Under the pieces are notes generated by a model. That model had not been told where the DNA came from, made no database searches, and worked only from the letters and a program-made list of their open reading frames with translations. A program made the position numbers and the translations under genes. DNA of 16,181 nucleotides from an uncultured Eubacteriales bacterium. GTDB taxonomy: Bacteria > Bacillota > Clostridia > Lachnospirales > Lachnospiraceae. Of this stretch, positions 4,815-16,181 are shown in pieces (within the stretch, counting starts at the first letter, position 1; each line of letters opens with the position of its first letter). The DNA lies in contig ONXW01000393.1 of NCBI GenBank assembly GCA_900321915.1, forward strand, positions 1 through 16,181. Direction: 5' to 3'.

Positions 4815-5372
4815 ATGACGAACAGTGCTAACCTGATTGTTTACCGGCTGCCGGCAAACCTGGCCGAAATGCTGAAGATGCCCGAAGCATCGATGCGCGC
4901 GCCGGAGCAGACGGCGTTTCTGACACTGGCGGCGCTCTGCGCTTATGTCGAGGATCGCAGCGACGGCCTGGAAATGCTGAATTACCTGCGCGGGCCGCGT
5001 CCGCTGGGAATTTACGACAGACAGTTTCTTGCTGAACGTTTCAAAGGACAGACATATATCCCATACTCCTATTTTGCCGGCGCCGTCCCGGAGAACGGCT
5101 ATACGCCGGAAGTTCCTTACTGCCTTGCCCTGTATGAGAATTCCTACAGCAGGGATAACCTGAACGACGGTTTCCTTACGATTTACCTGAGATCCGGCGG
5201 GGCGGAGACGGAACGGCCGATGACGTTCCGGATGAAGCCTTCCACGGGACAGTGGTTCCTCTGGGAGCAGTCCCTGATGGTCGGAATCCGGCCGCCGAGG
5301 ACACACGGTTCCTCGGGAACGCGCGTACGGACTTTCAGCAGGCTCCGAAGTTATGACATCGGACGGAGATAA
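4815..5372 (+). CDS. DUF6935-like protein of unknown function
   Basis: The ATG at 4815 has an excellent AAGGAGGGG site (4801-4809). The 185-residue soluble protein has no signal peptide or membrane segment. Landmarks are VYRLPANLAEMLKMPEASMR, PEQTAFLTLAALCAY, YLRGPRPLGIYDRQFL, YIPYSYFAGA and MKPSTGQWFLWEQ. These match a small family I remember from clostridial genomes (I believe DUF6935), for which I know no function. Up to about residue 160 it fits. The last 25 residues are arginine-rich and do not resemble the short family ending. The reading frame shifted by two bases at this point reads AAEDTRFLGNARTDFQQAP before a stop at 5354-5356, so the annotated end may result from an indel. The gene precedes a structured RNA and may be co-transcribed with it. 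Confidence 0.72.
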   Translation: MTNSANLIVYRLPANLAEMLKMPEASMRAPEQTAFLTLAALCAYVEDRSDGLEMLNYLRGPRPLGIYDRQFLAERFKGQTYIPYSYFAGAVPENGYTPEVPYCLALYENSYSRDNLNDGFLTIYLRSGGAETERPMTFRMKPSTGQWFLWEQSLMVGIRPPRTHGSSGTRVRTFSRLRSYDIGRR

Positions 5373-5377
5373 CTGCA

Positions 5378-5595
5378 GTGTGGGATGTCCCCGCTTCTTA
5401 AGGCGGGTAACAAACCAGACTCAGCAGTGGGGGACAATCCCCCGATGAGTTATACGCTGCGCTGGCATGCGCACACGTGCTGACTGGTAATTGATGCCTG
5501 GCGGCATCCGGCACGTGGCGCGCAGGACACGCGGGCGTGTCTTGAATGATATAAATGACCGGGGCTGCGGAATGTTCTGCAGCCCCGTTTTTATT
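5378..5595 (+). ncRNA. Structured non-coding RNA, possibly raiA-motif class
   Basis: This intergenic block has no convincing ORF but many compatible helices. CCCGC (5390-5394) pairs with GCGGG (5403-5407), GGGGGA (5429-5434) with TCCCCC (5438-5443), TGCGC (5458-5462) with GCGCA (5469-5473), GATGCC (5493-5498) with GGCATC (5503-5508), and GACACG (5526-5531) with CGTGTC (5536-5541). A long-range stem joins ACCAG+TCAGCA (5414-5426) to TGCTGA+CTGGT (5478-5488). CACGTGC (5474-5480) can also pair with GCACGTG (5511-5517), which competes with or complements that stem. The block ends in a strong terminator. Size, a large multihelix core and a private terminator fit a structured RNA such as the raiA motif, which is found in Firmicutes and linked to sporulation and aggregation in Clostridium. 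The class name is from memory and not from an alignment. The 5' end is a guess and I found no clear promoter. Confidence 0.62.
5560..5595 (+). terminator. Strong intrinsic terminator
   Basis: CGGGGCTGCGGA (5560-5571) pairs with TCTGCAGCCCCG (5576-5587), 12 pairs with one G-T and a 4-nt ATGT loop, followed by TTTTTATT. It ends the structured RNA and separates it from the DUF3810 gene. Confidence 0.9.
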
Positions 5596-5625
5596 GCAGC
5601 GGGGCTTGAATGGAGAGTGAGTAAT

Positions 5626-6699
5626 TTGTCTGGAAATAATAAAAAGCGGAACCGGTGGGGCATATCCGCCGCAATGGCGGCGGCGGGGGTCCTGCTGAGC
5701 CTTGCGTCGGTTTTTGTGCCCGGCTTTGCCTCAGGGTACCGGGCATATTTTTATCTTCCGGCGGCAGCCGCGGTCAGCAGCGTGTCCGGGCTTTTTCCCT
5801 TTTCCCTCTCGGAGGTCCTTCTAGCGGCGGTGCTTCTGGGACTGCTGTTCCGGATTGTGCTGTGCCTTCTGGGGAAAGCCCGTGTCCGGGATGCGGCATC
5901 TTATGCGGCGGCCGCTTTGAGCGCCGGGTTTCTTTTATACACCGTGTTCTGCGGGGTCAACTACAGGGCGGAATCATTTGCCGGACAGGCCGGCCTTGCG
6001 GTCCGGGAGAGCAGCGCGGAAGAACTTGAAAACCTCTGCCGTTGCCTGGCGGAGCAGGTCAACCTGCACGCCGCGGATCCCGGAAGCCTTATGAAACCTT
6101 CCCTCCGGGAGCAGGCCGAAGAGGGGAGGCGCGCCATGGAAGCGCTGGGGGAGGAATTCCCGGGGCTTAAGGGAAGGTATCCTGCGCCCAAGTTCCCGCT
6201 CTTTTCCCGGTTCTTTACCGTACAGCAGGTGACAGGCATTTACAGTCCCTTCTGCGTGGAGGCGAACTGCAACCGGGAAATCCCGGGGTATAACATGCCG
6301 TTCACCATCTGCCACGAACTGTCCCACCTGCGGGGCTGGATGCGGGAGGATGAGGCGAACTTCATCGGTTTTCTCGCCGCCAGCCGTTCCACGGATCCCT
6401 GGTTTTCCTACAGCGGATGGCTGTCAGGGTGGGTGTACGCGGGCAATGCGCTCGCCTCGGCCGACCGCGAGGCTTTTCGGGAAATATACGGGACACTCTG
6501 CGCGCGTGCCAGGGAGGACATGCGGGAAAACAACCTGTTCTGGGAGCAGTATGACGGGACGTACGCCGAGGCGCACGAGCGCATCAATGACACTTACCTG
6601 AAAGCGCAGGGGCAGCGGGACGGGACAAAGAGCTACGGACGGATGGTGGACCTGATGCTGGCGTACTACAGGGAACATCCCTGTTTCTTAACAAACTGA
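5626..6699 (+). CDS. DUF3810 membrane protein with HExxH zinc-protease motif
   Basis: The frame is open from 5491, but that part lies inside the RNA and its terminator, so a start after 5595 is needed. TTG 5626 has GGAGAG (5612-5617) 8 nt upstream and is my choice. GTG 5617 is possible. The 357-residue protein has three membrane segments (about 12-34, 62-83 and 92-110) and then a long domain, probably outside the cell. That domain contains ICHELSHLRGW with HELSH at 230-234, and a downstream DEANF (about 242-246) that would give the third zinc ligand, as in gluzincin-type metalloproteases. This arrangement matches DUF3810 proteins. The substrate is unknown. No promoter is obvious between the terminator and the start, so expression may depend on readthrough or a weak promoter. 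Confidence 0.8.
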   Translation: MSGNNKKRNRWGISAAMAAAGVLLSLASVFVPGFASGYRAYFYLPAAAAVSSVSGLFPFSLSEVLLAAVLLGLLFRIVLCLLGKARVRDAASYAAAALSAGFLLYTVFCGVNYRAESFAGQAGLAVRESSAEELENLCRCLAEQVNLHAADPGSLMKPSLREQAEEGRRAMEALGEEFPGLKGRYPAPKFPLFSRFFTVQQVTGIYSPFCVEANCNREIPGYNMPFTICHELSHLRGWMREDEANFIGFLAASRSTDPWFSYSGWLSGWVYAGNALASADREAFREIYGTLCARAREDMRENNLFWEQYDGTYAEAHERINDTYLKAQGQRDGTKSYGRMVDLMLAYYREHPCFLTN

Positions 6700-8172: not shown

Positions 8173-9051
8173 GTGGCTTCGTTTTTTACGACGGTATATT
8201 CCTGGTTTGCGTTTGTACCGCGGATGACATTTAAGAATGTCATCGAGATCGCTCTCATTGCGCTTCTTGTCTATGAGATGCTTCTCTGGATCAAGAATAC
8301 CCGGGCGTGGACGCTGCTCCGGGGAATCCTGTTCATCTTCGCCTTTTTCCTGTTCGCGACCATTCTCCAGCTGGATACCATTCTCTGGCTGCTGGAGAAG
8401 TTTTCCTTTATCGCGGTCACGGCGCTCCTGATTATTTTCCAGCCGGAGCTCCGGAAGGCGCTGGAACAGCTGGGAAGCCAGAATGTGTTCGGCCGCCTGT
8501 TCCAGACCGAGACGGAGATGGCCAGGGCAGAGTTTACAGCGAAGACCATCAGCGAGCTTGTGCGCGCCTGCTTTGAGATGAGCCGGGTGAAGACCGGCGC
8601 CCTGATCGTGATAGAGAAGGGAACCCCCCTCGGGGAGATCGAGCGGACGGGCATTGAAGTGGACGGCGTGGTGACAAGCCAGCTCCTGATCAATATTTTC
8701 GAGCACAATACCCCTCTGCATGACGGGGCGGTGCTGATTCGCGGAAACCGTGTGGCGGCTGCCACCTGTTACCTTCCCCTCTCGGAAAACATGGATATCA
8801 GCAAGGCGCTGGGGACAAGGCACCGCGCCGCGGTGGGCGTAAGCGAGACCACCGACAGCGTAACCCTGGTGGTTTCAGAGGAGACGGGCAGTGTCTCCGT
8901 GGCGCAGGGCGGGCAGCTCAGACGCATCAAGGACCCGGACGCGCTGACGACGCTCCTGAAGCAGGAGATGGTAAAAGAGGAAGAGAATTCCGCAAGGTTC
9001 GGAATTGTATGGAAGATGAGGAAGAAGAATGAAGGGAAGGCTGCTGAATAA
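8173..9051 (+). CDS. cdaA: Diadenylate cyclase CdaA (c-di-AMP synthase)
   Basis: CdaA joins two ATP into cyclic di-AMP, the messenger that controls potassium and osmolyte transport and cell-wall homeostasis in Firmicutes. The start is GTG 8173 preceded by GGAGGTGAG. The 292-residue length is close to the usual 270-290. The N-terminus has three membrane helices (about 20-40, 47-66 and 72-90). The DAC catalytic domain (about 95-260) contains LHDGAVLI with the metal-binding DGA at 184-186, and GTRHRAAVG with RHR at 216-218. Both signature motifs are intact, so it should be active. It overlaps cdaR by 23 bp, which fits the known CdaA-CdaR partnership. Its C-terminal tail is long and charged. Confidence 0.96.
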   Translation: MASFFTTVYSWFAFVPRMTFKNVIEIALIALLVYEMLLWIKNTRAWTLLRGILFIFAFFLFATILQLDTILWLLEKFSFIAVTALLIIFQPELRKALEQLGSQNVFGRLFQTETEMARAEFTAKTISELVRACFEMSRVKTGALIVIEKGTPLGEIERTGIEVDGVVTSQLLINIFEHNTPLHDGAVLIRGNRVAAATCYLPLSENMDISKALGTRHRAAVGVSETTDSVTLVVSEETGSVSVAQGGQLRRIKDPDALTTLLKQEMVKEEENSARFGIVWKMRKKNEGKAAE

Positions 9052-10405
9052 TCTCAGCCTGAAGCTGGTAGCGATTGCGTTAGCTTTTCTTGTGTGGCTC
9101 GCGGTGGTCAATGTGGCGAATCCCAGCAAGACCATCATGCGGGAAATCCCTGTCACCATAGTGAACGCGGAAGTGCTGGAAAAGGCCGATATGACCTATG
9201 AGGTTATCGGGAAAAACACAGCGACGATCAGCTTCAAGGCAAAGACAAAGGATGAATATAAGATCAAATCCGACGACTTTTACGCGTCGGCGGATATCGC
9301 GGAGATGTATGATGTTACCGGGGCCATCCCCATCACGGTCCGGGTCGTCAACCATGAGGACCTGATAGAATCCGGCCCGACCGTCCGGTCCCCGGAGGTC
9401 ATCCGTATCCAGACGGAACCGCTGCAGACGAAGGAATTCGCGCTGCGGGCTTTCCCGCAGGGAACCGTCGAGGGCGGGTACCAGGCGGGCGGCGTCACGA
9501 TGCGTCCGGAGAAGGTAACCGTCAAGGGGCCCCAGTCCCTGGTCGGACAGATCAGTTCCGTGGGCATCGAGTTTGACGTGACCGGCGCGGACGCCGACGT
9601 GAGCGGCCAGGCAACCCCCGGGTTCTACGACGCCAACGGGAACGAGCTGAACCTGGATGAATCCGTGAGGCTTCTCGGGGGCGATATCGCCTATACCATG
9701 CGGGTGCTCAGGCTGAAGGAGATCCCGTTGAACTTTGTTGTGGCCGGGAACGTCGCGCCCGGATTCCGGTTTGTGGGCGCGGAGACGACGGTCCCGACAG
9801 TCACGGTGGCGGGCACCGCGACGGCGCTTGCCTCCGTATCGGAAATCCGGATCCAGAATCCCGCGCTTAACGTGGAGGATGCCCGGGCCGATGTCAAAAC
9901 AGAAGTAGATATCAGCTCTTACCTGCCTTCCGGCGTGTCCCTGACCGGGCTGGACAGCACTGTCATCCCGGTAACCCTGAAGGTTGAAGCTCTCACGGAG
10001 AGAACCTTCACTGTCCGGACCAGCGATATTTCCATTATCGGGGAGAGCGGCAGCTTCAGCTACGGTGTGGAAGCGTCCAATGTGGATGTTTCCGTACAGG
10101 GCTTTGCGGAGGATGTGGAAGGCCTTACCGTGAGCTCCATGCATCCGACGGCGGATGTCAGCAGCCTCGGGGCGGGAACCCACCAGGTGCGCGTCACGCT
10201 GACCCTTCCGGAAAGCTGCGTGCAGAGGGGGAACTCTGAAGTGACTGTGCACATCCGGGAGCGCGGCGAGCAGACGGGACAGGAAACGCAGCTGGAGACG
10301 GGGGAAGAGTCTTCCTCCGCTGCGGAAGAGTCCGCGGATGGTTCGGAAGAGCCTTCGGGGGAGAGCCCCGAGACAGCGCAGGAATCTGCGGAGGAGCAGC
10401 CATGA
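9029..10405 (+). CDS. cdaR: CdaR, YbbR-repeat regulator of CdaA
   Basis: CdaR is anchored in the membrane by one N-terminal helix (here about residues 9-28, LSLKLVAIALAFLVWLAVVN). It exposes YbbR repeats outside the cell and regulates CdaA by contact in the membrane. The 458-residue protein contains about four beta-rich YbbR-type repeats between residues 35 and 405. Beyond the last repeat is a tail of about 45 residues made mostly of Glu, Ser, Gly, Thr and Gln. This low-complexity acidic tail is not needed for the fold and may be a spacer in the wall. ATG 9029 lies inside the cdaA end, so the two are translationally coupled. The stop overlaps the next start as ATGA. The usual third gene, glmM, does not follow. 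Confidence 0.92.
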   Translation: MKGRLLNNLSLKLVAIALAFLVWLAVVNVANPSKTIMREIPVTIVNAEVLEKADMTYEVIGKNTATISFKAKTKDEYKIKSDDFYASADIAEMYDVTGAIPITVRVVNHEDLIESGPTVRSPEVIRIQTEPLQTKEFALRAFPQGTVEGGYQAGGVTMRPEKVTVKGPQSLVGQISSVGIEFDVTGADADVSGQATPGFYDANGNELNLDESVRLLGGDIAYTMRVLRLKEIPLNFVVAGNVAPGFRFVGAETTVPTVTVAGTATALASVSEIRIQNPALNVEDARADVKTEVDISSYLPSGVSLTGLDSTVIPVTLKVEALTERTFTVRTSDISIIGESGSFSYGVEASNVDVSVQGFAEDVEGLTVSSMHPTADVSSLGAGTHQVRVTLTLPESCVQRGNSEVTVHIRERGEQTGQETQLETGEESSSAAEESADGSEEPSGESPETAQESAEEQP

Positions 10406-10659
10406 TTAAGACGACGGTTACCCTAAAGATACCCGGGGGACTGCATCTTCGGCCGGCGGAACATCTCTGCAGCCGGGCCATGCATTTTAAGTCCGACGTG
10501 GAGCTGTTCCTGCGCGGGACCCATTACAATGCCAAAAGCGTACTCAGCGTGCTGGGCGCGTGCATCCGCTGCGGGGATTCCTTTGAGATTGTCTGCACCG
10601 GGCCCGATGAGGTGGATGCGCTGAAGGAGCTTTCCTCTTTTGTGGAAAATGAGTTATGA
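10402..10659 (+). CDS. HPr-family phosphocarrier protein
   Basis: The 85-residue protein has HPr length and fold landmarks. GGLHLRPAEHL puts the active-site histidine at residue 15, with Arg17 and Pro18 as in HPr. NAKSVLSVLGA puts a serine at residue 46, the position phosphorylated by HPr kinase in Firmicutes. In the family, His15 carries phosphate from enzyme I to sugar transporters, and Ser46 links to carbon catabolite control. Differences from typical HPr are Leu16 (usually Ala) and a Cys-containing GACIRCGD region, so it may be a second, specialised HPr and not the main ptsH. It overlaps cdaR and the next gene by 4 bp each. No enzyme I gene is nearby. Its presence between cdaR and a polymerase gene is unusual. 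Confidence 0.88.
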   Translation: MIKTTVTLKIPGGLHLRPAEHLCSRAMHFKSDVELFLRGTHYNAKSVLSVLGACIRCGDSFEIVCTGPDEVDALKELSSFVENEL

Positions 10660-13514: not shown

Positions 13515-14144
13515 TCAGGGCTCATATCCCACCGTCTCCAGGTACCTGCGGATGATGGCCACCGTGCCTTCGATACCCGGCTTTGTGGTGTTGATCACAA
13601 GGTCATAGTGTTCGGAATTGGCCCAGTCGCGGCCGGTGTAATAGCGGTAGTAGTCATTGCGCTCCCGGTCAACCTTGCGGATGAGGCGCAGGACGTCTGT
13701 TTCCTGCGGGTTGCGCTCCGCAATCCTGGCCATGCGGGATTCCAGGTCGGCATTCAGGTGCACGCGCACCAGGTTTTCGGTGCCCTCCAGGACAAAATCC
13801 GCGCAGCGGCCGATGAAGACGCAGGATTCCTCCTCCGCCAGCTTCCGGATCACCTCGGACTGGAACCGGAACAGGTTGTCGGAATCTGTCAGATCCGGAC
13901 CGAAGGAAGGAGAGGATTTCTCCGGCCGCAGGTTCGATACGATGCGGTAGAGAATGCGGCTTCCGGCTTTCTCGTCAGCGAGATGGAAATAGCTCTCCTT
14001 GATGCCGCTCTCGTCGGAATTGATTCGGAGTATGTTTTTGTCATAAAAACTGATGCCAAGTTCTTCCGCAAGCTGTTTTCCGATTGCGGCGCCGCCGCTT
14101 CCATACTGCCTGCCGATGGTGATGACAACGTGCTTTTCTGCCAT
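13515..14144 (-). CDS. Cytidylate kinase-like family protein
   Basis: The 209-residue protein starts at ATG 14144 with AGGAGG 6 nt upstream. It begins KHVVITIGRQYGSGGAAIGKQLAEEL, a phosphate-binding loop (GRQYGSGGxxIGK, residues 11-23), then FYDKNIL. IGRCADFVLE (about 111-120) corresponds to the conserved GR-x-AD of this family. The C-terminal helices hold many Arg residues (VDRERNDYYRYYTGRDW), fitting an ATP lid. These features match the group annotated as cytidylate kinase-like, which is common in Clostridia beside the true Cmk. The substrate is not known for this group. It is probably a nucleoside phosphate kinase, but the CMP-specific insert is not obvious to me. It lies 53 bp downstream of dapF on the same strand. 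Confidence 0.82.
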   Translation of the reverse strand: MAEKHVVITIGRQYGSGGAAIGKQLAEELGISFYDKNILRINSDESGIKESYFHLADEKAGSRILYRIVSNLRPEKSSPSFGPDLTDSDNLFRFQSEVIRKLAEEESCVFIGRCADFVLEGTENLVRVHLNADLESRMARIAERNPQETDVLRLIRKVDRERNDYYRYYTGRDWANSEHYDLVINTTKPGIEGTVAIIRRYLETVGYEP

Positions 14145-14197: not shown

Positions 14198-14998
14198 TTA
14201 CAGTTCAATTTCTCCCTGAAAAACCTCCGTGGCAGGGCCGGTCATATAGACAAGATCCTCTTGCCTGTCCCAGCGGATGACCAGGTCGCCGCCCAGCAGG
14301 TGCACCGTCACGGTATCATCCGTATAACCGTGCAGGATACAGGCGACCGCCACAGCGCAGGCGCCTGTGCCGCAGGCCAGGGTTTCGCCGGATCCGCGCT
14401 CCCAGACACGCATCCGCACGTGGGAACGGTCCAGGACCTTCACAAATTCCGTGTTGGTGCGGTTCGGAAAGCGGGGATGGTTTTCCCAGGGCGGCCCGAT
14501 GACCGGAAGGTCGAGGATGGCCGGGTCATCCACGAAGACCACCGCGTGGGGATTCCCCATGGAAATGCCGGTGAAATTCGCCTCCGTGCCGTCGACGGCG
14601 ATTGCCTCGTCGATGGCGGAGGTGAGCTCGGGCCTTCCCATATTGACCGTGGCCGAGGAGACACGTCCGTCTTCCAGCTCCATGTGAAGGTGCTTGATGC
14701 CGGCCAGGGTTTCGATGGAAATATCGGTCCTGTCAACAATGCCGTGATCGTAGGCGTATTTCCCGACGCAGCGGATGCCGTTGCCGCACATTTCCCCGCG
14801 GGAACCGTCGGCGTTGTACATGGCCATCTCGCAGTCTGCCTTATCGGAAGGGTTGATGAGGATCAGGCCGTCGCCGCCGATCCCGAAATGACGGTCCGAG
14901 ACCCGGATCGCGGCGGAGGAAGGATCCTTCACCTTCTCCTCGAAGCCGTTGACATAGACATAATCATTGCCGCACCCGTGCATCTTGGTAAATTTCAA
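14198..14998 (-). CDS. dapF: Diaminopimelate epimerase DapF
   Basis: DapF interconverts LL- and meso-diaminopimelate, the last step before lysine and peptidoglycan precursor synthesis, using two cysteines without any cofactor. The 266-residue protein has both. Cys71 lies in GEMCGNGIRC and Cys209 in TLACGTGACA. Ligand residues are also present: Asn11 in GCGNDY, Asn62 in YNADGS, Asn149 in GNPHAVV, Asn182 in RTNTEF, and Glu200-Arg201 in VWERGSGE. It is therefore a complete, normal enzyme. The start is a TTG (14996-14998), supported by AGGAGG (15005-15010) 6 nt upstream and by the family start KFTKMHGCGND. A second DapF-fold gene ends 42 bp upstream and the two probably share a transcript. Confidence 0.95.
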   Translation of the reverse strand: MKFTKMHGCGNDYVYVNGFEEKVKDPSSAAIRVSDRHFGIGGDGLILINPSDKADCEMAMYNADGSRGEMCGNGIRCVGKYAYDHGIVDRTDISIETLAGIKHLHMELEDGRVSSATVNMGRPELTSAIDEAIAVDGTEANFTGISMGNPHAVVFVDDPAILDLPVIGPPWENHPRFPNRTNTEFVKVLDRSHVRMRVWERGSGETLACGTGACAVAVACILHGYTDDTVTVHLLGGDLVIRWDRQEDLVYMTGPATEVFQGEIEL

Positions 14999-15040
14999 CG
15001 GATAACCTCCTTTTCTGGTGGGAGAGCGAAAGCCGGGAAA

Positions 15041-15904
15041 CTATTTCAGCGCCCGTATCTGCTCGCTGAGTTCATTGCCCAGGGAAATGGATCCGACATA
15101 ATCGACGGCGCCGACCATGTAGACTTCGCCGTCCTCCCGGATCTCCACTTCCAGGATTCCGCCGGGCATGTGCACATACATGTTCCGGTCGGCCAGGCCC
15201 ATCCTGTATGCCGCGCAGGCGGCGGCGCAGGCGTTGGAGCCGCCGGCCAGGGTATAACCGGTGCCGCGCTCCCAGATCTCAATCTGGATGTTGGTGCGGT
15301 CCAGGACATTCAGCAGCTGGGTGTTGACCTTCTCGGGGAAATACTCCGCATTCTCGGAATGCTCGCCGATGCGGCAGACAATATCCTTTGAGATCTCATT
15401 CATCCAGATGACGCAGTGGGGATTCCCCAGGGACAGGCAGGTCGTGACATACGGGATCTTGCCGAACACCATGATCTGGTTCACCATCTCGCGCCGCTCG
15501 CCGGTCACGGGGATCTCATCGCTCCAGAAGGTGGGGATGCCCATGGAAACCTTCAGGCGCCTGCCTTCCTCGTTCAGGTAAATAACATGCTCCTCTCCGG
15601 CGTCGGTATCGAATGTAAAGCTGCTTTTCTGCACATATCCCTGGTCGCGGAGATAGCGGGCGAAGATAGCCATGCCGTTGCCGCTCCTGGCGGATACGCT
15701 GCCGTCGGCATTGTAGATTTTCACGTACATTCTTTCCCGGTCCAGGAAGGGGCCTACGAGAACGCCGTCCGCCCCGATGCCGAAGTGACGGTCGCAGAGG
15801 CGGGCGATGCCGGCGGCGGAGAGCACAACCGGGCTGCGGTTCGGGTCGTAGACCAGGTAGTCATTTCCCATACACTGGTATTTATAAGTTGTAATCTGTT
15901 CCAT
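15041..15904 (-). CDS. DapF-like protein lacking both catalytic cysteines
   Basis: This 287-residue protein has the DapF two-domain fold but not its chemistry. The segment aligned to CGNGIR reads SGNGMA, so the first catalytic cysteine is Ser74. The segment aligned to ACGTGACA reads AGGSNACA, so the second is Gly221. Ligand-binding positions remain: MGNDYLVYD, YNADGS, GNPHCV, VNTQLL, and WERG with Glu212-Arg213. The glutamate before the second cysteine in DapF is Tyr217 here. The frame is intact and codon use looks normal, so this is not a decaying pseudogene. It may bind an amino acid as a sensor or partner of DapF, or carry out another isomerisation. I recall Cys-less DapF homologues annotated as epimerases in other Firmicutes. 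ATG 15904 has AAGGAG 6 nt upstream. Confidence 0.85.
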   Translation of the reverse strand: MEQITTYKYQCMGNDYLVYDPNRSPVVLSAAGIARLCDRHFGIGADGVLVGPFLDRERMYVKIYNADGSVSARSGNGMAIFARYLRDQGYVQKSSFTFDTDAGEEHVIYLNEEGRRLKVSMGIPTFWSDEIPVTGERREMVNQIMVFGKIPYVTTCLSLGNPHCVIWMNEISKDIVCRIGEHSENAEYFPEKVNTQLLNVLDRTNIQIEIWERGTGYTLAGGSNACAAACAAYRMGLADRNMYVHMPGGILEVEIREDGEVYMVGAVDYVGSISLGNELSEQIRALK

Positions 15905-15948
15905 ATCGGTCTCCTTGTCAGATTCATTCTATAAATTAAGATATCATT

Positions 15949-16088: not shown

Positions 16089-16181
16089 ATGGTAAAAGTT
16101 GCGATTAACGGTTTCGGTCGTATCGGTCGTCTTGCTTTCAGACAGATGTTTGAGGCTGAGGGTTATGAGGTTGTTGCTATC
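16089..16181 (+). CDS. gap: Glyceraldehyde-3-phosphate dehydrogenase, N-terminus (partial)
   Basis: The first 31 residues of a type I GAPDH are present and the rest is beyond the window. [20 protein letters not shown] contains the NAD-binding GxGxxG (GFGRIG), followed by EGYEVVAI. In glycolysis GAPDH oxidises glyceraldehyde 3-phosphate to 1,3-bisphosphoglycerate. AAGGAGG (16074-16080) is 8 nt before the ATG. The codons are unlike those of neighbouring genes: Gly and Arg are GGT and CGT throughout, as expected of a very highly expressed gene. The catalytic cysteine region is outside the window. Confidence 0.95.

Follow-up and report, generated by a model that had tools for sequence, protein, structure and literature searches.

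The 16,181-nucleotide stretch of Lachnospiraceae DNA analysed here (the window) encodes a DapF paralogue that almost certainly belongs to a clade of DapF proteins in which both catalytic cysteines have been replaced, mostly by serines, and which we term the serine-type clade. On balance we see an even chance that this window protein is a derived serine-type DapF that would no longer epimerise DAP, would still bind it, and would most simply influence the downstream-encoded DapF as its partner or modulator. What sets the protein apart is that, next to a DapF with both cysteines (Cys/Cys), it has also lost the second serine and a lysine. DapF itself is the textbook example of an epimerase that works with two cysteines and no cofactor, and it is a drug target whose catalytic cysteines are attacked by covalent inhibitors.

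The paralogue and its neighbours

Alignment confirms what an earlier note on this DNA had read from the letters, namely that Ser74 and Gly221 stand in place of the two cysteines and that the asparagines and the Glu-Arg pair holding the amino acid are kept. At the first catalytic place the window protein carries Ser74 within NADGSVSARSGNG, against NADGSRGEMCGNG in the neighbouring DapF, and at the second Gly221 within GYTLAGGSNACA, against GETLACGTGACA; position 73 is Arg. The kept residues are Asn14, Asn65, Asn161, His163, Asn194, Glu212 and Arg213, and all of them except His163 correspond to Asn13, Asn66, Asn164, Asn197, Glu215 and Arg216 of Anabaena DapF, listed as DAP contacts in the part of the source available to us (PMC12039745). 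The protein has the two-domain DapF fold with neither catalytic cysteine, and it scores 215.6 bits with the NCBIfam model for DapF (TIGR00652), whose cut-off is 114.65, so that automated annotation would name it dapF, as the earlier note had foreseen. The Ser/Gly pair is shared with the homologue P0001 (90% identity) and with L032, a locus of another genome record (91% identity). A relocated catalytic cysteine was also considered, and no cysteine able to take over was found: Cys37 and Cys164 are conserved among serine-type rows, Cys37 occurring in 3/18 Cys/Cys rows as well, and Cys226 has given way to other residues in 16 of 40 aligned rows from genomes where the serine-type protein stands alone (solo rows).

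The tandem arrangement with an intact DapF was described correctly before, the Cys/Cys dapF following after 42 nucleotides, and the ribosome-binding site is indeed a good one (Table 1). The promoter of its own that had been ascribed to the paralogue was not recovered, as a consensus scan of the minus strand found no promoter-like site upstream of it. The same scan of the 42-nt gap found neither a promoter-like nor a terminator-like site on that strand, and the layout suggests that paralogue and dapF may lie on one transcript. Gene context was rejected as a clue to function, for the upstream GAPDH gene is divergent and the downstream kinase-like gene points to no function. Elsewhere in the window (8173-10659) lies a row of genes for a CdaA-type diadenylate cyclase, a YbbR-domain protein and an HPr-like protein.

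Table 1. Features around the DapF paralogue, in positions of the window
Feature	Position	Strand	Basis
Cytidylate-kinase-like protein, downstream	13515..14144	-	PF13189, 189.7 bits
Intact Cys/Cys dapF, TTG start	14198..14998	-	TIGR00652, 295.8 bits
Gap between paralogue and dapF, 42 nt, with AAAAGGAGG 5' of dapF	14999..15040	-	Sequence
Serine-type DapF paralogue, 287 aa	15041..15904	-	Ser74/Gly221 at the two catalytic positions
Gly221 codon GGC (= Cys224 of Anabaena DapF)	15242..15244	-	Window sequence and alignment
Ser74 codon AGC (= Cys75 of Anabaena DapF)	15683..15685	-	Window sequence and alignment
Ribosome-binding site AAGGAG	15911..15916	-	Six bases 5' of the paralogue ATG
Start of a divergently oriented GAPDH gene, truncated where the window ends	16089..16181	+	PF00044, 40.1 bits

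The serine-type clade and its carriers

When the best 120 homologues were aligned with the window protein and its neighbour, the 122 rows held the pair Ser/Ser 114 times, Gly/Ser five times, Ser/Gly twice (the query and P0001) and Cys/Cys once, in the neighbouring DapF, so that no Cys/Cys protein stood among the 120 homologues. For a broader tree, 171 sequences were reduced to 128 by removing those more than 97% alike and six of the 128 were omitted, leaving 122 rows; 20 Cys/Cys proteins then fall on one side of a branch with support 98/95, including L182, a very long row of unsure placement. (For the alignment, the Cys/Cys group was counted without L182 and L185, and L186 was dropped entirely.) Within the serine side, the window protein sits in a single clade of 66 Lachnospiraceae-type rows (support 100/99), which includes a few whose records bear the names Clostridiaceae, Clostridiales or Thermoflexaceae. 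The serine side remained one group, with weaker support (88/88), in a tree of 83 chosen rows that had more varied Cys/Cys rows and lacked columns 73, 74 and 221. To the earlier question whether the Ser/Ser and Ser/Gly forms make a clade of their own, both trees answer yes, and no scattered phylogeny was seen.

Compared with Cys/Cys DapF (TIGR00652; Anabaena 9MRO, H. influenzae 1GQZ, E. coli 4IJZ), most of the clade has Ser/Ser and the window protein Ser/Gly; solo serine-type members have Lys instead of the Met that precedes the first cysteine, the Glu at 217 is Tyr, Trp, Phe or His, and the C-terminal tail is about 6-8 residues longer at the median. Identity to the O-ureidoserine racemase (7VDY) is 30%, and that to the histidine racemases HisR of F. 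nucleatum and CntK of S. aureus is 13-15% by structural alignment, the catalytic residues of HisR being Cys67 and Cys209 in the excerpt at hand (PMC11602996). A natural hydroxyl residue in place of a catalytic cysteine is also found in Cys/Thr Asp/Glu racemases and in the Cys-to-Thr trans-3-hydroxyproline dehydratase, but in these enzymes, as the available passages describe them, one Cys is replaced, whereas serine-type DapF has lost both (PMC8142540).

A pattern scan over one genome per species, with serine-type patterns as query, yielded 580 relatives, of which the best 80 were followed up, so that shares within this sample are not frequencies. The serine-type records among these 80 include Opitutaceae, Prolixibacteraceae, Dadabacteria, Spirochaetaceae, Desulfobacteraceae, Phycisphaerales, Chloroflexi and Neobacillus cucumis, and serine-type genes also occur in records named Bacteroidota, Verrucomicrobiota and Planctomycetota; among loci L067-L111, only L092, L097 and L106 are Cys/Cys. 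Outside the Lachnospiraceae the motifs NPDGSEAEKSGNGLRI and ERGAGYTLASGSSSC are near-frozen, and Lys73, Ser74, Ser221 and the listed DAP contacts are invariant in 40/40 aligned sequences, a combination that the window protein, with Arg73, Ser74 and Gly221, does not share. The 120 nearest relatives of each of two solo queries, which are close kin rather than a broad sample, gave Ser/Ser with Lys in 240/240 further proteins.

In these groups the serine-type protein is mostly the sole DapF. Through the serine-type loci outside the Lachnospiraceae (within the best 80 of 580 relatives) 28 genomes were reached, and a search with the DapF model found a single DapF homologue in 25 of them. The three exceptions (G204, G209, G212) each have a Cys-type homologue besides the serine-type copy, which in the metagenome bin G209 is a Cys/Cys dapF flanked by lysA on one side and a DapL gene on the other, and in G204 and G212 is divergent or broken. 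The very divergent Cys/Cys homologue of the Neobacillus cucumis genome G204, L182, is perhaps another racemase.

We then counted larger samples, chosen by relatedness, using a profile of solo members; each genome was assigned its state by profile score, and these scores are two-humped. In the class Opitutae (n=93) 21 genomes were serine-type (at least 333 bits), 62 had other hits (at most 166 bits) and 10 none; in the Prolixibacteraceae (n=60) 31 were serine-type (at least 385 bits), 27 other and 2 none; in the Opitutaceae (n=61, overlapping the Opitutae sample) 47 were serine-type, two of these calls coming from broken or cut genes (G516, G526), with 8 low-scoring others and 6 none. Both forms together were seen in 0 genomes of each of the three samples (Fisher P about 1e-13 for Opitutae, 5e-15 for Prolixibacteraceae and 1e-6 for Opitutaceae, uncorrected for kinship). 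The Bacteroidota at large (n=99) had 2 serine-type genomes, 92 others and 5 with none; one of the two, G200, is the centre of both this sample and that of the Prolixibacteraceae and was counted in both. Residues were read as Ser/Ser in 53/53 distinct serine-type genomes of the Bacteroidota, Opitutae and Prolixibacteraceae samples, and as Cys/Cys in all 51 other hits read out of 181; among newly fetched Opitutaceae loci, 23/24 matched the Ser/Ser pattern. The genomes without any hit (10/93, 2/60 and 6/61) indicate that distant DapF proteins can escape the profile, so that a distant second copy could be overlooked in serine-type genomes too. Five of the 27 other Prolixibacteraceae hits (L281-L285), read as Cys/Cys, score 243-255 bits with the serine-type profile, the other 22 scoring 73 or less, and these five are candidates for near cysteine relatives of the serine-type clade.

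The surroundings of the solo genes were read for the DAP pathway as well. DAP dehydrogenase (Ddh) exceeded its cut-off in 0/28 genomes, with weak matches in six, and the DapL model TIGR03540 in 7/28, a plant-type DapL adjoining L086. LysA was over cut-off in 21/28 genomes (any match in 27/28) and MurE in 25/28, with DNPR, which we take to be the meso-DAP motif of MurE, in 20/28 loci; the MurE loci lacking it are three from Spirochaetaceae and five others. A lysA or dapL-like gene lies inside the fetched flank of 12/40 solo loci, a count that includes a fusion of LysA with a Ser/Ser DapF domain in one 739-aa frame of a Chloroflexi metagenome record (L074:4627-6843, plus strand, the same as L191:1540-3756, minus strand). 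Directly 3' of the solo serine-type dapF at L076, L080, L081 and L083, and in the same downstream place at L091, L100, L102 and L104, there is a hydrolase related to aminofutalosine deaminase that scores below the model cut-off.

Second copies in the Lachnospiraceae

Among 200 Lachnospiraceae genomes, the window's own included, 38 have a serine-type match, and 37 of these also hold a second DapF of at least 247 bits; in the remaining one, G092, the serine-type match is partial and the DapF search gave nothing but fragments. The second copies that were read are Cys/Cys in 30/30 cases. To the earlier question whether such forms usually stand beside a normal DapF, the answer is yes at the level of the genome in this family (37/38), and no both as to direct adjacency and for the solo carriers outside it. 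Within the best 80 of 580 relatives, a Cys/Cys dapF lies in the fetched flank, often a short one, of 8/37 Lachnospiraceae-clade loci, and only L032 has it directly adjacent; the tandem placement is special to the window lineage. Loci L040, L043 and L044 point to an Enterocloster-type cluster of serine-type dapF, glnA, an ANTAR protein, Cys/Cys dapF and a plant-type DapL, pieced together from parts annotated in the different loci, and in Lacrimispora and relatives (L034-L038, about 4976-5998) a D-Ala-D-Ala-ligase-like gene lies directly 5' of the serine-type dapF.

The active site is looser in this clade. In the census of its 66 rows, which omits one partial row, 16 are no longer Ser/Ser (Gly/Ser 4, Ala/Ser 3, Ser/Asn 3, Ser/Thr 4, Ser/Gly 2), and they are spread over four distinct regions of the tree, of which the Ser/Gly one consists of the window protein and L032. 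Outside this clade no such departure was seen, either among the tree's remaining 36 serine-side rows or among the 40 aligned solo rows, so that the loosening is confined to the clade that coexists with Cys/Cys copies. Of the 66 rows in which position 221 holds a residue, 57 have Ser there; Lys73 is kept in only 19 of the 50 Ser/Ser rows, and one of the six DAP contacts is changed in 3/66. The window protein would descend from the Ser/Ser enzyme through one entry of the serine-type gene into the Lachnospiraceae.

Possible functions and their meaning

For the serine-type family as a whole, to conclude from the absence of cysteines that there is no DAP epimerase is unsafe, because the Ser/Ser form is solo in 25 of the 28 genomes reached outside the Lachnospiraceae, excludes the Cys/Cys form by profile score and is once fused to LysA. 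This picture is the one expected of a displaced, working DAP epimerase, and the Ser/Ser pair is probably compatible with epimerase function; placed at the same helix caps as the cysteines, it would carry out the epimerisation, probably aided by Lys73. We lean towards the view that the Lys-Ser/Ser branch is a working, cofactor-free DAP epimerase with two serines, and that the window protein derives from it and probably no longer epimerises. Rather less probable is that the entire clade is non-epimerising and its solo carriers use an unrecognised DAP epimerase, for example a PLP-dependent one. The accessible part of one source proposes such an enzyme, DapF2, for Staphylococcus and others that lack dapF (PMC9026213), and desolvation and pKa are said to favour Cys over Ser in passages of another (PMC8142540). 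In the sections available of a third (PMC5303756), which do not give stereochemistry, DAP was found by GC/MS in Opitutaceae including Opitutus terrae and, at a low level, Lacunisphaera, and Lacunisphaera strains gave no DL-DAP by TLC, these data concerning species whose own DapF sequences lie outside those read here. Against it stand the exclusion of the Cys/Cys form by profile score, which is uncorrected for kinship, the LysA fusion and the lysA or dapL-like neighbours, and the DAP contacts unchanged in all 40 aligned sequences.

The window protein itself quite likely lacks DAP epimerase activity, judging from its residues. The earlier note had said as much, and its conclusion stands in so far as loss of two-base epimerisation is likely for a Ser/Gly protein; its argument does not, as missing cysteines prove nothing by themselves where Ser/Ser proteins are solo. 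Beside a Cys/Cys DapF, Lys73 would have become Arg and the second acid/base, Ser221, Gly, and with both lost a two-base inversion is not expected. Since the fold and the DAP pocket are kept and the gene is under purifying selection, we propose that the protein would bind DAP or a close analogue and act non-catalytically on the DAP step. That it is a partner or modulator of DapF we put forward tentatively, from its adjacency in the window lineage and by analogy, most relatives not being seen adjacent to dapF. There is a precedent for a non-catalytic role in E. coli DapF, whose binding and stimulation of RppH persist when Ala replaces both cysteines, as far as the consulted part of the report goes (PMC4227774).

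The main rival is that the window protein is still an enzyme, working with Ser74 as its one acid/base in alpha-proton exchange, elimination or one-way isomerisation on a DAP-like amino acid. Ser74 and the DAP contacts are kept, and this serine could serve as a single base; only one of the two positions has changed in several Lachnospiraceae lineages; and among related cofactor-independent enzymes a change of one Cys to Thr accompanies irreversible racemisation or dehydratase activity, according to the passages at hand (PMC8142540). With 50/66 rows of the Lachnospiraceae clade Ser/Ser and 4/16 departures leading to Thr, itself a hydroxyl residue, the clade may be catalytic there too. We hold one-base chemistry in the window protein to be unlikely, given that Lys73 is lost as well, that the window neighbourhood offers no substrate candidate, and that the residues now standing at the changed positions (Gly, Asn, Thr, Ala) would seem to have no chemistry in common. 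By analogy, the protein might instead have assumed some DapF function that needs no epimerisation, for instance the binding of an RppH-like Nudix hydrolase, which we regard as very improbable. The link between DapF and RppH is to our knowledge known only from E. coli. In that species the interaction is independent of catalysis, in the available text of the report (PMC4227774). Decay into a functionless duplicate is very improbable too: the Ser/Gly change and the loss of Lys73 do resemble a loss of catalysis, and sister lineages left Ser/Ser independently, but between the window and the L032 genome dN/dS of the paralogue is 0.076 at dS 0.79 (0.089 for the neighbouring dapF), and the frame and binding pocket are intact. 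The same values, and the same Ser/Gly pair in this second genome record, make a sequencing error unlikely, which the earlier note had named as a possible refutation, and disfavour a pseudogene.

In the titles and abstract openings of the open-licence literature we found no DapF with both cysteines naturally replaced, and since the serine-type genes listed from these genomes, inside and outside the Lachnospiraceae, score over the cut-off of the DapF annotation model, annotation will probably name them dapF with no warning. The Lachnospiraceae offer a natural experiment in which the Ser/Ser state was left four times where a Cys/Cys copy is present, with the one measured pair still under purifying selection. 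The serine-type branch, for its part, would either overturn the need for thiols in DAP epimerisation or else reveal a hidden second DAP epimerase.
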